Source: Bacteroidota bacterium (GTDB lineage: Bacteria; Bacteroidota; Bacteroidia; Bacteroidales; UBA10428). Taken from it: a stretch of 55,483 nucleotides of DNA. This document shows, piece by piece, positions 35,015-40,255 of this stretch (its first letter is position 1; each line of letters starts with the position of its first letter). The translations under genes and the position numbers were made by a program. The notes beneath the pieces are model-generated. The model saw nothing but the letters and a program-made list of their open reading frames with translations. It searched no databases and was not told where the DNA came from. Location: positions 1 through 55,483 of the forward strand of contig QKEH01000159.1 of NCBI GenBank assembly GCA_003252385.1, given 5' to 3'.

Positions 35015-38000
35015 TTAATTTACCGGAATCACTTCGTTCAGATCAATGTACCAGAGAAAGCCTTTCACCTGGGTATACCCCATTTTTAACAGCAACTGGA
35101 TGTACTCTCTTACCTGTTGCTGATGAGTAGTTTCGGCACGGTTGCTGCCGAATTTATAGTCCACAATATGCACCAGGTTATCCCAAATGATCACCCGGTC
35201 GGGGCGGCGTGTGGCGCCTCCCGGGAGGAGCAGTTCGGCTTCGTTTACAACTTCGCCGGAACCATCGAACCACCGGGCTGCGGGATCCTGGAGCAGGCAA
35301 TTCTCAATGTGCTGCTGAAGGGCAAAGCCCTCCTCAATGGCAATCCATCCTTCGTACACGACTTTCCCAACCGCCGACTGGATATCGGCAGTGGTGCGGA
35401 TACCAGCCAGCAGGTTGTGCAATACCTTCCCCCGTAGCTTACGTTCATCGGCTGTTGGGTGACTTTCGCTAAAATAGTCCAGGGCCTGACTGCCAAAAAA
35501 CAGCCGATCCATAGCCGGAGTGTGGAGGGTAGGGGAAATATATTCTTCGGGAGCGGATGTTGCCGCCTGCGGTATGGCTTGCAGAGGAAGAAATCCGATT
35601 CGCAATTCCCGATTTTCCGGGTGGTAGTGGTTGGCAAGATCGGGGTGGGTTGAATTGCAGATGCTTTGGTACAGCAGATCGCCCGTGGTATTAAGTTTGT
35701 CGGTGGAATCCGGTTGTTCCACTTTGGAAAATACAATTAGGCTCTCTACCGCACGCGTTAGGGCCACGTACAGCAGGTTCAGGTTATCGACATGAGCCCG
35801 GAACATTTCCTGGTAGTAGGACTGGGCAAATTGGGTGTCGCGTAGTGACATTGTGTATTCGACCGGATAGGCCGGAAATTCTCCGGAGGCAGCACCGGGA
35901 AGAGTAGCCCAAATCAGTTCAAGTGTTTTCTGATCCAGATTCCAGCTACCAAAGGGGATTAGCACCGCTTTAAATTCCAGCCCTTTCGATTTATGGATGG
36001 TAAGTATCCGAATGGCATTTTGACTTTCGGATACCGAAACCGACGTGGACTGACCTTCTTTTTCCCAGTAGTCCAGAAAAATGCTCAGGTTACCCGGATG
36101 GTTTTGGGTGAACTCATGCACCACATTCAGGAATGCATGCAGGTAAGGTAACTCGCGGCTGGAGGCATACAGGTTAAAGAGGCTGATCAGCTGTTCGGTT
36201 AATTCATAGAGCGGAAGCGACCGGTAGGTTTCCTGTTGATGGTGGAGTTCGTTGGGTATGCCATCGGATGTAGCACTGAAGAGGGGCAGCGAATACTGCG
36301 AATGGGTTTCGCCGCTTAGAAGGCTTCCGGGCAGCATGGCTAGCAGTGCGGCCAGTTGATTCCGATAAAACGTTTCGTCGGGCTGGTGGAGAAAGTAAAA
36401 TGCGGCAACCAGCAGTTGAACGCTGTGCGATGCGGTAAGGAACAACGATTCGTTGGAAATCACCTGCAGATCGGTCAGGAACGCCTTTTGGCTGTTCTTT
36501 TCGATGAGCAGGTCCGCAATTTGTTTGCCTTCTTTGGCTTTTCGCACCAGAATGGCCATATCGCCAGGCTGGTAACCCCGCTCCAGAAGGGTGTTGATAC
36601 TGTCAATTACTTGCTGGTTAAGCTTCTCGTCAGTTCCTTCTGTATCGTTATTTTCGAAAAACCGAATGTGAACATTGCCCTTGCCGGGGGTGTGCTGAGC
36701 GCAGTGCTGTGCCACATCCTCGTATATGTTCGCAAGCAGTTTTAATTCTTCATCGAAGTTAGCATCCGATTCGACAACTCGTGCTTCCAGTTTGGAGTGT
36801 ACGCCACGAACCAGTTCCCTGAACAGGGCATTGTTGAAATCGACCACTTCGCGACAACTGCGCCAGTTGGTGTCCAGTATTTTTATGTTCAGGCTTTCGG
36901 GACGAAAACTTTCCTGGATTTGGCGGGCCAGAATATCCCAGTCGCCATTTCGCCATCGGTAGATCGATTGTTTGGCATCGCCCACCAACAGGCAATCGTC
37001 CGCCTGCGACAGGGCGTGCTCCATGAGCGGCCTGAAATTATTCCATTGCAGGGACGAGGTGTCCTGAAATTCGTCGATCAGATAGTTGCGGTAACGATTG
37101 CCCATTTTTTCGTACAAAAAGGGCGTGTCATTATCCCGGATCAAGCGTTCGATAAGCACGGGTGCATCGCTCAGAATAAAGGTGTTTTTTTCATACCGGA
37201 AGGCTTTGACTTTGTCACTAAGTTTCACCAGAATACCCAGCGGGTAAAGGGTTTTTGTCAGGGTTTTCAGGGTGCAATACCGGGTGTAGTTTGTTCTGAT
37301 ATACTGTATGGTTTCGTTCAGTACTTTTTGCAAATCTGAATGAACCAGCGCCAAAACGGCTGATCGGTTCTTACTGTCCTTATGTGGCCAGTATTCGGCG
37401 TCATTCAATAAGTTTAGAATAAGAGGCTGTTGGGTAATAAATTCCTTTTTGGAATTATGCAGTTTCAGTTGGCTGATATTTTTAAATACCGCAGTGGCTC
37501 CGCGGCTTTTTTGGTTGAAGTCGTTGGGCGACAGCTCTGCTTTTTCAATCAGCTGAAGCGCTTTTTCGCCATAATTTCGGCAGTGTTGTTCGAACTGGAT
37601 TTTCTCCTTATGCCAGTTGGTTCGTATGGCATGCAGTTGGGAATAGTCGGAAAGCAGGGCGGTAAATTGTTCCGCCCGGGAAGCAAAAGTTTCGTTAAAA
37701 AGTTCGCGACCCAATTTGCTCAAATCGCTGCGAAAGTCCCACGATTTCCCTTGCGCTATCTTATCAAAGGCAAAGTGGGTGAGCCATTCCAGAAGCTGAG
37801 GGTCTTTGGCAGCATCTTCAATCAGGTGGTCGATGGCATAATCCAGTACTTCATCCATGTTCAACTGGATGGAATAGTTGCCAGGCACACCCAGTTCGCG
37901 GGCAAAGGAGCGTATGATGCGTTGGAAAAAGCGGTCGATGGTTTCGATGCTGAACCACGAATAATCCTGGAGAATGCAGTTTAGCAGGCGGGCGGCTTTG

Positions 38001-38260
38001 CTGCGCAGGGTGGCTTCGTCGTGCTGCAAAGTTTTTTGCAGCGGTTCAATAAAGAGTGAATGGGCGCCCGAAGCCAATTTAAAAAGTTCACCCACGATCC
38101 GTTCCTTCATTTCGCCCGTAGCCTTGTTGGTAAAAGTTACCGCCAGAATGGATCGGAAATACGCATCGTGGTGGCGGAATAACAGTTGGAGATAATACCC
38201 CGTAAGCGCGTGGGTTTTCCCCGAACCAGCCGATGCTCGTATAACGGTAAGTTGACTCAT
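35015..38260 (-). CDS. AddA-like UvrD-family helicase-nuclease subunit
   Basis: A 1081-residue protein that unwinds DNA from breaks and, through a C-terminal nuclease, degrades it. UvrD motifs occur in order: I, ASAGSGKT at 9-16; Ia, VTFTNKATGEMKER; II, YLIDEFQDTS; III, LVGDAKQSIYRWRNGD; IV, LDTNWRS; V, RILTIHKSKGLEFK; VI, LLYVALTRA. The PD-(D/E)XK nuclease ends in RRPDRVIIWDN and HIVDYKFG near residue 1035. It is first in the operon with the radical SAM and AddB-like genes. The ATG at 38260 precedes motif I closely, as in the family. Confidence 0.9.
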   Translation of the reverse strand: MSQLTVIRASAGSGKTHALTGYYLQLLFRHHDAYFRSILAVTFTNKATGEMKERIVGELFKLASGAHSLFIEPLQKTLQHDEATLRSKAARLLNCILQDYSWFSIETIDRFFQRIIRSFARELGVPGNYSIQLNMDEVLDYAIDHLIEDAAKDPQLLEWLTHFAFDKIAQGKSWDFRSDLSKLGRELFNETFASRAEQFTALLSDYSQLHAIRTNWHKEKIQFEQHCRNYGEKALQLIEKAELSPNDFNQKSRGATAVFKNISQLKLHNSKKEFITQQPLILNLLNDAEYWPHKDSKNRSAVLALVHSDLQKVLNETIQYIRTNYTRYCTLKTLTKTLYPLGILVKLSDKVKAFRYEKNTFILSDAPVLIERLIRDNDTPFLYEKMGNRYRNYLIDEFQDTSSLQWNNFRPLMEHALSQADDCLLVGDAKQSIYRWRNGDWDILARQIQESFRPESLNIKILDTNWRSCREVVDFNNALFRELVRGVHSKLEARVVESDANFDEELKLLANIYEDVAQHCAQHTPGKGNVHIRFFENNDTEGTDEKLNQQVIDSINTLLERGYQPGDMAILVRKAKEGKQIADLLIEKNSQKAFLTDLQVISNESLFLTASHSVQLLVAAFYFLHQPDETFYRNQLAALLAMLPGSLLSGETHSQYSLPLFSATSDGIPNELHHQQETYRSLPLYELTEQLISLFNLYASSRELPYLHAFLNVVHEFTQNHPGNLSIFLDYWEKEGQSTSVSVSESQNAIRILTIHKSKGLEFKAVLIPFGSWNLDQKTLELIWATLPGAASGEFPAYPVEYTMSLRDTQFAQSYYQEMFRAHVDNLNLLYVALTRAVESLIVFSKVEQPDSTDKLNTTGDLLYQSICNSTHPDLANHYHPENRELRIGFLPLQAIPQAATSAPEEYISPTLHTPAMDRLFFGSQALDYFSESHPTADERKLRGKVLHNLLAGIRTTADIQSAVGKVVYEGWIAIEEGFALQQHIENCLLQDPAARWFDGSGEVVNEAELLLPGGATRRPDRVIIWDNLVHIVDYKFGSNRAETTHQQQVREYIQLLLKMGYTQVKGFLWYIDLNEVIPVN

Positions 38261-38363
38261 TTTCAAAATATTTCTCAAAAGTATCAATTTTTAAAGCAAA
38301 AAAAGGGTGCGTTATTCTCTTAAAATTCATATCATTGGGCTCTTGTCATAAACGAAACAGGTT

Positions 38364-38941
38364 ATGATCAGTCCGCCTGACCAATGGGTTTCCGATTACG
38401 GAGACTATCTGTACAGTTATGCTATACTTCGTGTCCGGGATACAAGCCTGGCCTGCGACCTGGTACAAGATACTTTCCTGGCAGCACTTAAGGCACGTCA
38501 CGATTTTGAAGGGCGCAGCAGTGAAAAAACCTGGTTTTTTCCATCTTAAAACGCAAGATTATTGACCATTACCGGAAACAGGGTCGCAATAAGGAACATA
38601 ACCTTTTGGATGCAAACTACCACGAAGGCAAGGAAGAACTTCCCTTTCAAAGTGAGGGAATTAGGGCAGGCAGCTGGAAGGAGGATCGAACACCACAGGA
38701 CTGGGGAATAGCCCCCGATGCAGCCATGGAAAACGACGAACTGGGAAACATGTTGTTACATTGTATGTCCATACTTCCCGAAAAATGGAGAGCTGTATTT
38801 TCACTGCGTGTAGTGGATGAGTTGGATACTGAAACTGTATGTAAGGAACTGGATATTACTTCGTCTAATCTTTGGGTGATTTTACACAGAGCCAAATTGC
38901 AATTGCGGGAATGTGTGGAAAGAAACTGGTTTACAGATTAA
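38364..38941 (+). pseudogene. ECF sigma factor interrupted by a one-base frameshift
   Basis: Two frames join into one ECF sigma factor of about 192 residues. The first (38364-38549) holds region 2 with SLACDLVQDTFLAALKARH and stops just after TWFFPS. The second, in the -1 frame from about 38540, continues SILKRKIIDHYRKQGRN and then region 4, LPEKWRAVFSLRVVDELDTE and SSNLWVILHRAKLQLREC. The break lies at a run of six T (38535-38540); seven T would restore one frame. It may be a real inactivation, programmed slippage or a sequencing error. The next gene is a zinc-finger anti-sigma candidate, so the pair is otherwise intact. Confidence 0.8.
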
Positions 38942-38947
38942 GATGCA

Positions 38948-39259
38948 ATGAACAGGAGCATGAAGAATACCATGATGTCGCTTATGCGGCGGATAATGTT
39001 GAGCTGCGAAGAAGCAACCCAACTGGCCAGCCGAAAGGAAGAAGAGGCCCTGGGTATGGCGAAAACCATGCACTTGCATTTACACCTTGCTGTATGTAAA
39101 CCTTGTATGCGGTTTTATCGTCAATCGGCTTTGTTGTCGGGGGTGGCCAAGAAACAGGTCGACAGGGCCCTGGGAAGGAAAGTACCCTTGCATCGGATGT
39201 CCGATGAGGAGAAGGTGAAATTGCAAAAGCTCATTCACAACAGAATTCAGAAAATCTAA
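38948..39259 (+). CDS. zinc-finger anti-sigma factor candidate (zf-HC2-like)
   Basis: A 103-residue soluble protein starting seven bases after the ECF gene. It has LSCEEATQLASRKEE near residues 17-31, then HLHLHLAVCKPC at about 40-51. The Cys followed by a His-x3-Cys-x2-Cys spacing is the zf-HC2 zinc-binding pattern of anti-sigma factors such as ChrR/RsrA-type proteins. No membrane segment is visible, so the sensing is probably cytoplasmic. It likely controls the adjacent ECF sigma factor, with the downstream Cys-rich protein as the target gene. Confidence 0.72.
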   Translation: MNRSMKNTMMSLMRRIMLSCEEATQLASRKEEEALGMAKTMHLHLHLAVCKPCMRFYRQSALLSGVAKKQVDRALGRKVPLHRMSDEEKVKLQKLIHNRIQKI

Positions 39260-39326
39260 TACACGAAAACACGTCATTTTTAGTAATTATTGTATTTAAA
39301 TTAAATCTAAACTAAATTGTAACAAC

Positions 39327-39692
39327 ATGAGAATTCAAAAGAAAACCTTAAAAGTAAGCGCCCTGGTGCTTAGCGTATTGTTTGTAGGCATGGTTGCCCT
39401 TTCGGCCAATGTGAAAAGCGGAGTAAGTTCCGACGACGATCAGGATACCACGGTAACCGAGCTGAACCACCTGGTGGCTTTATCTGTTAGCCTTTGTTCC
39501 GATGAGGATCAGGATACTACCGTGGCCGAGTTGAATAACCTGCTGGCTTTAGCTACCGATGATAGGTGTGGCGAATCGAAATGTGGCGAATCGAAATGCG
39601 GTTCTGGTGATGATGGCGATGATGGCGGCGACGACTCGGGTGATGACGACTCTGGGAGCGACGATCAAAACAAATGTGGTGAAGGAAAATAG
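39327..39692 (+). CDS. secreted acidic Cys-rich repeat protein, bufferin/HvfA-like precursor
   Basis: A 121-residue protein with a signal peptide (VSALVLSVLFVGMVALSA). Two tandem units of about 25 residues follow, each with D(E)DQDTTV-x-ELN-x-L-x-AL. Then CGESKCGESKCGSG at about residue 80, an Asp/Gly/Ser-rich acidic stretch, and NKCGEGK at the end. The KCGEGKCG-type repeats are characteristic of precursors of HvfA/bufferin oxazolone-thioamide peptides that bind metals. No DUF692-family modifying enzyme is in this window. It follows an ECF sigma/anti-sigma pair and has a strong terminator. It might instead be an unmodified metal-binding protein. Confidence 0.7.
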   Translation: MRIQKKTLKVSALVLSVLFVGMVALSANVKSGVSSDDDQDTTVTELNHLVALSVSLCSDEDQDTTVAELNNLLALATDDRCGESKCGESKCGSGDDGDDGGDDSGDDDSGSDDQNKCGEGK

Positions 39693-39727
39693 GATCACGT
39701 AATAACCTTTACACGCAAAATTTAAAA

Positions 39728-39770
39728 AAACCCTTAACCGGATACCCAGGTTGAGGGTTTTTCTTTTTAT
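39728..39770 (+). terminator. rho-independent terminator after the Cys-rich protein gene
   Basis: A 12-bp stem (39728-39739 with 39749-39760, one G-T pair) is followed by TTTTTCTTTTT. It ends the transcript 35 bases past the stop codon, separating it from the next gene. Confidence 0.88.
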
Positions 39771-39785
39771 CCTCCGGGAAAATAA

Positions 39786-39793
39786 TACCTTTG
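39786..39793 (+). promoter_or_regulatory. -7 promoter element of the small membrane protein gene
   Basis: TACCTTTG matches TAnnTTTG, 18 bases before the ATG at 39812. With the terminator just upstream it gives this gene its own transcription unit. Confidence 0.5.
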
Positions 39794-39811
39794 GACTCAA
39801 TTTTATTCAAT

Positions 39812-40255
39812 ATGGCTCAAAAGATTCCGGTAATTCGCAATACAAATCTTTCCTATTTTATACCTCAGGTTGCTACGGCATTATTGCTTGTATCGTTGTT
39901 GTACGGATTGGGAAACGAGCATTATTTCCTGTTGGGTTTGGCCTTGTATTTTTTACTATCCTTCTACCTGAAAGTGCTTATACCCAAGTGGCACCGTAAA
40001 GGGATATTTGCCCTGAAAAAAGGCAAACTCGATTTGGCGGTGTTGGCTTTTGAGCGCAGTTACGCGTATTTTCACCGGTATCCGTGGATCGATAAGTATC
40101 GGGCTTTCACACTTTTGAGTTCCTCGCGTTACAGTTACATCGAAATGGCTCTGATGAACATGATTTATTGTCTGGAGCAGATGGGCGACCACAAAACCGC
40201 CAAAAAATACCACCAACGCCTGAAACAGGAATTTCCCGACAATACGTATGCTTAA
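39812..40255 (+). CDS. membrane-anchored TPR-like protein
   Basis: A 147-residue protein with two N-terminal transmembrane helices (FIPQVATALLLVSLLYGL and YFLLGLALYFLLSFYLKVLI), then a cytoplasmic region with one TPR-like pair (GIFALKKGKLDLAVLAFERSY and EMALMNMIYCLEQMGDHKTA). No function is recognised. The stop TAA overlaps that of the convergent histidine kinase gene by the shared TTAA. Start is the ATG at 39812; an upstream in-frame TTG lies on the promoter box and is unlikely. Confidence 0.75.
   Translation: MAQKIPVIRNTNLSYFIPQVATALLLVSLLYGLGNEHYFLLGLALYFLLSFYLKVLIPKWHRKGIFALKKGKLDLAVLAFERSYAYFHRYPWIDKYRAFTLLSSSRYSYIEMALMNMIYCLEQMGDHKTAKKYHQRLKQEFPDNTYA

Follow-up and report, generated by a model that had tools for sequence, protein, structure and literature searches.

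A locus in a Bacteroidota bacterium that encodes an ECF sigma factor in two pieces, an anti-sigma factor and an exported Cys-repeat protein (Table 1) is likely to be the remnant of an HvfABC operon. According to this interpretation, enzyme-less proteins of this kind would work unmodified, a promoter embedded in the sigma gene would serve as feedback and the copy described here would be decaying. The ancestral operon would have encoded sigma factor, anti-sigma factor, HvfA, HvfB and HvfC, of which HvfB (DUF692) and HvfC (DUF2063) are gone while the Cys-repeat protein stayed. The position of the locus and the absence of both enzymes from the genome are read directly, and we infer that the enzymes were lost rather than never gained. 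The locus is part of a stretch of 55,483 nucleotides (hereafter the window), which is contig C52 of a draft genome of 3.93 Mb in 182 contigs with a completeness of 97.55% and a contamination of 0.06%.

Table 1. Features of the locus and its two boundaries, in positions of the window.
Feature	Position	Strand	Remarks
UvrD-type helicase, divergent	35015..38287	-	left boundary of the slot; common to G002, G004, G010 and G139
N-terminal piece of the ECF sigma factor, region 2, ending with TAA	38364..38549	+	PF04542, 37.8 bits; shorter than in relatives
T6 run, one-base break of the sigma frame	38535..38540	+	compared sigma genes of relatives continuous here
C-terminal piece of the ECF sigma factor in the -1 frame, from the remainder of region 2 through region 4	38540..38941	+	PF08281, 36.5 bits; match to the G002 sigma factor
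Promoter-like TGTAAGG-N15-CGTCTA in the region 4 codons for CKELDITSSN	38840..38867	+	108 bp ahead of the anti-sigma start
Anti-sigma factor, 103 aa, H-x3-C-x2-C	38948..39259	+	no transmembrane segment by eye; NCBIfam score and relatives
Upstream region of the precursor gene, promoter of relatives missing	39260..39326	+	possible remnant limited to CGTC at 39272-39275
Exported acidic Cys-repeat protein, HvfA-like, without LGSGxELR motif	39327..39692	+	121 aa; sequence
Probable terminator, consisting of a stable hairpin and a T-rich tail	39726..39762	+	-21.2 kcal/mol, z -4.9, 0/200 shuffles as stable
TPR-like protein	39791..40255	+	right boundary of the slot

The genes described in an earlier note on this DNA are found where it had placed them, with two corrections: the sigma factor is not a single open frame, as it is split into two pieces by a one-base frameshift at the T6 run, and the gap to the following gene, given as seven bases, measures 6 (38942-38947). 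Sigma regions 2 and 4 consequently lie in different reading frames, and each piece matches sigma factor families in Pfam. The C-terminal piece shares 59% identity with the intact sigma factor of G002 over 142 residues (query residues 56-197), a match that was reported from position 38504 with two stops read through, and the frame continues without a break in the sigma genes of relatives that were compared at this point. Programmed frameshifting was considered and rejected, since a T6 run preceded by G does not fit the classical slippery heptamer rule; either a genuine lesion or an error of the assembly is therefore likelier. In the latter case, the evidence for decay would be weaker. No near paralogue able to replace this sigma factor was found in the genome, the next best candidate showing 31% identity. 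The best named match to the sigma family comes from Bacteroidales bacterium CSMAG_82 (L142), and the G002 sigma factor resembles the TIGR02943 ECF sigma family with a score of 158.8 bits, just under the cut-off of 162.2. The small His/Cys protein noted behind the sigma gene was recovered as a 103-aa ORF with the motif HLAVCKPC and is predicted to be a zinc-type anti-sigma factor; it has no Pfam match and reaches 48.9 bits with the NCBIfam antisigmaE model (NF052368-type), just under the cut-off of 50. The locus differs from TIGR02943 and NF052368-type pairs in these two sub-threshold scores and in the frameshift of its sigma gene.

Comparison of the genomic context revealed a common slot in related genomes. 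In G004, of the same genus, and G010, of the same family, UvrD and rSAM genes are found beside genes for a sigma factor, an anti-sigma factor, an HvfA-type precursor, DUF692 and DUF2063, to which G010 adds DoxX; the contig of G004 stops shortly after HvfC. In G002 (same genus), the UvrD gene, at which the examined stretch ends, lies beside the sigma and anti-sigma genes and no precursor is present. Here, the TPR-like gene directly follows the anti-sigma gene and can therefore be regarded as the right edge of the slot; it was seen in the window and G002 only. G139, a member of another family of the order, exhibits UvrD and rSAM beside the sigma factor, the anti-sigma factor, a CGEGKCG protein and DoxX, with neither DUF692 nor DUF2063 in the slot. 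As the window protein occupies the same UvrD-side slot as these operons, it is probably the remainder of an HvfABC operon. The window fits into the series as a copy that retained the Cys-repeat protein, under an order of losses and gains that is itself reconstructed.

The secreted, acidic CGES/CGEG protein of the earlier note corresponds to a 121-aa ORF whose N-terminus resembles a signal sequence by eye and which contains RCGESKCGESKCG and NKCGEGK; both of its tandem DQDTTVxELN units were found again. A signal-type N-terminus followed by CGE-x-KCG repeats is a feature of HvfA/Buf_EGKCG proteins. The CGESK repeat is encoded by a 15-bp DNA repeat (2.1 copies, 100% match), and the CGE-x-KCG DNA pattern shows two matches in the locus and none elsewhere in the genome (reversed control: 0). 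Both HvfA models score below their cut-offs, with 15.2 of 95 bits for NF050188 (HvfA) and 14.2 of 19.5 for NF050137 (KCGExKCG_twice). For comparison, NF050137 was passed by 9/9 related precursors tested and NF050188 by 0/9. A search with the 121-aa protein in 60 relatives returned only the protein itself, and relatives were therefore sought via the anti-sigma factor and the DNA motif. These failed models and the missing matches leave position and motif as the basis for homology. The interpretation of the earlier note was partly supported: the kinship with HvfA/bufferin precursors gains support from the shared slot with the HvfABC-type operons of G004 and G010, against the sub-threshold profile scores, while the driving role of the sigma locus is doubtful and the named chemistry has been revised (see below). 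Compared to known HvfA, Buf_EGKCG, oxazolin and fontiphorin precursors (captophorins), the window protein shares the signal-like N-terminus, the repeated CGE-x-KCG, the ECF sigma neighborhood and the slot of the relatives' HvfABC-type operons. It differs in the lack of DUF692 and DUF2063 in its genome, the missing LGSGxELR-like motif, scores under both NCBIfam cut-offs and an acidic, Asp-rich linker. Among the proteins seen, the nearest in acidic make-up is a second CGDGKCG/CGEGKCG protein of G139, which is located near GMC genes (L055:1315-1653).

The absence of a modifying enzyme from the neighborhood, as first noticed, extends to the assembled genome (97.55% complete). The DUF692 profile (PF05114) gave 0 matches among four scored candidates (2/14 control genomes positive), and DUF2063 (PF09836) likewise gave 0 matches, with 3/17 genomes positive (G004, G010, and G029) and none in G002. 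No ORF of the window matches HvfB, HvfC, DoxX, GMC oxidoreductase or gluconate-dehydrogenase subunit 3. In total, 13 genomes with enzyme-less precursors, including that of the window, were searched, and both DUF2063 and DUF692 were absent in 13/13. Within the order, the CGE-x-KCG DNA pattern, which misses variants so that the counts cover pattern matches only, occurs in 45 of 392 genomes, and DUF692 exceeds the cut-off in 14 of 392. In-frame CGEGKCG-type proteins are found in 24 genomes of the order, comprising 14 with and 10 without DUF692 (G000, which is the window's genome, G066, G070, G074, G077, G139, G271, G342, G365, and G403); G066, G070, and G077 contain only orphan proteins with no sigma gene in the examined stretch. 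Among the other 21 pattern-positive genomes, 15 were examined and rejected, as five of the hits belong to presumably ribonucleotide reductase-like frames of some 500 aa and the rest fall outside open frames or into frames that are short or unrelated, and the single hits of G132, G133, G167, G261, G289, and G336 were left out. Most of the compared genomes are drafts, G003 being 66% complete. DUF692 genes were assigned with the Pfam profile and, in named loci, by similarity; the labels GMC oxidoreductase, gluconate-dehydrogenase subunit 3, DoxX, DUF2063 and DUF427 derive from a Pfam run on one example each and from similarity thereafter.

Enzyme-less genes have been reported before. In Table 3 of Antoine et al. 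(2025; PMC12452194), 67 of 2,583 Buf_EGKCG genomes lack an MNIO, a number termed very few, and it was suggested that precursors distant from MNIO genes are either modified from another locus or remain unmodified. The likeness lies in a precursor whose genome lacks the enzyme and the difference in frequency, with very few cases there and 10 of 24 genomes of one order here, two figures that are not strictly comparable as the former is based on profile and the latter on pattern detection. The parts of that study available to us contain neither a motif nor a promoter analysis.

Enzyme-linked and enzyme-less precursors are distinguished by a motif following the signal sequence. An LGSGxELR-like motif occurs in 29/29 full-length precursors whose locus contains DUF692, against 0/18 precursors from genomes that lack DUF692; it is also absent from the window protein. 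The expression used, [LM]G[STN][GA]x[EQD][LVI]R (typically LGSGAELR), was written after inspection of the sequences, and since the rows are related, the counts represent a strong correlation and no blind test. Excluded were G222a, which is truncated, and L167, in which DUF692 is present and no precursor was called. In G385, the ORF caller missed the precursor; its motif is present on reading and stands outside the count of 29. Two precursors located away from the DUF692 gene of their own genome were counted apart, G222b with and G004b without the motif. HvfBC was found to modify full-length HvfA far better than signal-less HvfA (partial view of PMC13419390). The joint disappearance of motif and enzymes makes the motif a candidate recognition element of HvfBC in Bacteroidota.

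A common promoter-like pattern, TGTAAGG-N15-CGWCTA, was identified upstream of the relatives' precursor genes. With at most two mismatches, it precedes 23 of the 28 enzyme-linked genes with enough upstream sequence, a similarity reached by 0.14% of base-shuffled upstream regions. There are five exceptions: G124, whose examined stretch contains a sigma gene of the same family, and G035, G062, G151, and G303, whose stretches contain none. For enzyme-less genes, the tally covers 19 genes without DUF692 in the locus, with G222b set apart. All seven that lie beside a sigma gene of the same family, window excluded, carry the pattern with 0-1 mismatches (G003, G074b, G271a, L145, L158, L163, and L210), which argues for a function with free cysteines. 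G342a and G365, with no sigma gene in the stretch, also carry it with 0-1 mismatches, and nine unlinked genes, among them lipoprotein and EF-hand genes, lack it (4-6 mismatches).

In the window, the pattern is absent from the precursor upstream region, where the best match has five mismatches. A housekeeping promoter of Bacteroidota (TAnnTTTG) was sought by eye in the same region and not seen. Given the frameshifted sigma gene and the loss of the relatives' precursor promoter, it is doubtful that the sigma locus drives the 121-aa protein. With only the embedded copy left, this type of sigma factor could reach the precursor gene from there alone, and any synthesis of the precursor would depend on a joint transcript with the anti-sigma gene that terminates at the downstream hairpin. 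A simple scan for sigma-70 promoters and terminators performed no better than on shuffled sequences, and the hairpin was absent from its list. If the frameshift is no artefact of the assembly, the broken sigma frame, the lack of a near paralogue and the eroded Cys motif indicate that the copy in the window is probably poorly expressed or decaying.

Other genes found behind the pattern suggest a regulon for oxidant or metal stress. It precedes DUF427 genes in G146 (Pfam) and, by similarity, in G003 and G284, DoxX genes in L149, L166, and L175 and, with one base changed, a gene for a methionine sulfoxide reductase (MsrA-type) in L212. DoxX, the MsrA-type enzyme and DUF427 would point to oxidative stress as much as to metal, and direct evidence of control by metals was sought without success. 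The exact pattern yielded 28 matches in 22 whole genomes as compared to 11 for the reversed control; single distant matches thus mean little and may be due to chance. The DUF427-type genes behind the pattern in three genomes (L130:1201-1482 by Pfam, L139:1560-1766 and L119:1184-1462) probably belong to the same sigma regulon. A 10.5-kb locus of Arachidicoccus (L212:4102-10168) contains four exact and one near match preceding MsrA-like, ABM-like and other genes, possibly a concentrated regulon.

The same pattern is found inside the sigma genes themselves, which appear to carry their own promoter in the region 4 codons. The copy in the window is the only exact match of its genome, the reversed control also giving one. 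In a first count, the embedded pattern was exact in 6 of 17 sigma genes, where codon use for the encoded amino acids predicts 0.035. The enlarged set comprises 78 genes including the window, with identical 36-base stretches counted once and 15 rows without the amino-acid expression dropped; here, 28 genes are exact vs. 0.25 expected, the -35 part is present in 46 of the 53 genes with Lys at codon 2 vs. 8.1 and the -10 part in 51 of 78 vs. 2.3, the sigma genes being related and hence non-independent trials. A pattern-blind scan of 73 sigma genes, without the window, ranked 179 codon columns by the departure of the third base from codon use. The first four ranks were taken by the pattern's four wobble positions (G of 214.7, 97.2, 43.8, and 37.2; next column 32.0; 95th percentile 20.4), and in the clearest of them a third-base G (NCG codon) occurs in 68 of 73 genes vs. 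12.0 expected. With a relaxed pattern in 80 named loci, 54 of 59 embedded sites are located 86-129 bp before the anti-sigma start. Exact copies exist in records labelled Chlorobiota, Acidobacteriota, Desulfuromonadales, Neomarinimicrobiota and Bacteroidota; G002 and G004, the window's nearest relatives, show one mismatch in the -10 part.

A cause of the silent-site constraint other than a promoter, such as codon bias, pausing of the ribosome or a small RNA that overlaps the gene, is improbable. Flavobacterial members, many of which carry TGTAATG or TGTAAAG in the embedded copy while keeping the -10 part, speak for such a cause, but the bases under constraint reproduce the 28-bp pattern that precedes the precursor, DoxX and DUF427 genes, the scan returned precisely its wobble positions, including one that favors NCG, and the sites keep their distance to the anti-sigma start. 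In addition, a precedent exists in Corynebacterium glutamicum, where an experimentally supported, SigH-dependent promoter of the anti-sigma gene rshA is located within sigH (partial view of PMC3489674). Both systems would thus place a sigma-dependent anti-sigma promoter inside the sigma coding region; they differ in promoter sequence, and the pattern predicted here overlaps region 4 codons whose silent sites are kept family-wide, features distinguishing it from what the available part of that report describes. A literature search, outside of which most subscription journals fall, found nothing on the sigma family of the window. If the promoter is confirmed, one and the same DNA stretch encodes the promoter-reading region and is that promoter.

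In the proposed mechanism, stress would free the intact sigma factor of relatives from its zinc-type anti-sigma factor, and the sigma factor would fire a pair of like promoters, the first upstream of the precursor gene and the second within the codons for its own region 4. Transcription from the latter would raise the level of anti-sigma factor, thereby shutting the response down. Enzyme-linked precursors would be converted into thiooxazole copper buffers and enzyme-less proteins would retain free thiols, acting as exported buffers for copper-like metals or oxidants with unmodified cysteines. The enzyme-less state recurs in relatives, with no enzymes, no LGSGxELR-like motif, the sigma promoter kept and DoxX often adjacent. 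In a tree of 52 sigma proteins built with a quick method, the nine enzyme-less rows require eight changes, at least four of which are forced by well-supported branches; the row of G365 represents a sigma gene from another contig and that of the window the C-terminal piece, which groups with G004 and G002 (99% SH-aLRT). Eight changes for nine scattered rows indicate that the enzyme-less state arose several times. The chances are about even that an exported, ECF-controlled CGEGKCG family repeatedly outlived its enzymes and works with free cysteines, often together with DoxX, and that the embedded promoter is an anti-sigma off switch maintained by selection on silent sites.

Other histories have to be weighed against the remnant operon. 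The enzyme-less loci could be ancestral, with HvfBC gained later, and an unrelated modifying enzyme may act on the precursor. A working HvfA-type RiPP precursor, whose product carries thiooxazoles and whose enzyme is encoded elsewhere or hidden in an assembly gap, is quite improbable. Two CGE-x-KCG units remain in the window protein, and FonBC was shown to modify a two-repeat and not a one-repeat substrate (partial view of PMC13097082); moreover, the genome is split into many contigs, and modification from another locus is one of the options given for precursors away from MNIO genes (PMC12452194, as far as available). Yet the motif of enzyme-linked precursors is missing from the window protein, and with both enzymes missing from all 13 enzyme-less precursor genomes tested, the same gap would be needed in each of them. 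The missing enzymes likewise disfavor the earlier suggestion of modification by an enzyme encoded elsewhere in this genome.

Rather unlikely, with somewhat more in its favor, is plain decay, in which the window locus is dying, its enzyme-less relatives represent earlier stages of loss and the unmodified protein has no function. The window itself shows the signs of such a process (sigma frameshift, lost precursor promoter, drifted Cys motif), and G002 lacks the precursor as well. Against this, nine other enzyme-less genes, seven of them sigma-adjacent, retain the promoter with 0-1 mismatches and intact CGEGKCG-type repeats, and the enzyme-less rows fall on separate branches of the sigma tree. 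Even in the window, the anti-sigma frame, the precursor frame, the embedded pattern and the terminator-like hairpin are all intact.

The oxazolone-thioamide groups that had been named as the product have since been reassigned to 5-thiooxazole for HvfBC (partial views of PMC13419390 and PMC13097082). The model NF050137, passed by 7/7 enzyme-less precursors tested, needs only the KCGExKCG motif to name a protein a modified RiPP metallophore. Should the enzyme-less class prove real, this name is wrong for its members, and the class would offer a natural comparison between the modified and the unmodified form of a single metal buffer.

Orphan CGEGKCG proteins repeatedly adjoin genes for a GMC oxidoreductase and a gluconate-2-dehydrogenase subunit 3, a candidate alternative partner or maturase (L035:1509-4182, L089:1996-4510, L090:3034-5998, L096:5717-9055, L158:6025-8943, and L084:7200-9862). 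The Pfam run was performed on the pair of L035, and in L158 the pair comes after an ECF-linked precursor. The idea of this pair as an HvfB substitute, which arose from several such neighborhoods, was rejected for the window, as it has no matching ORF. In genomes without DUF692, CGEGKCG blocks are also combined with EF-hand-type repeats in lipoprotein-like proteins (L096:8111-9052 by Pfam, L087:7033-7638 and L098:6455-6994 by reading); EF-hand fusions have been described (PMC12452194, in the part available). A further protein from a genome without DUF692 (L097:6627-7136) is weakly NosL-like (18.4 of 24 bits) and carries KCGDGKCGG near its C-terminus.
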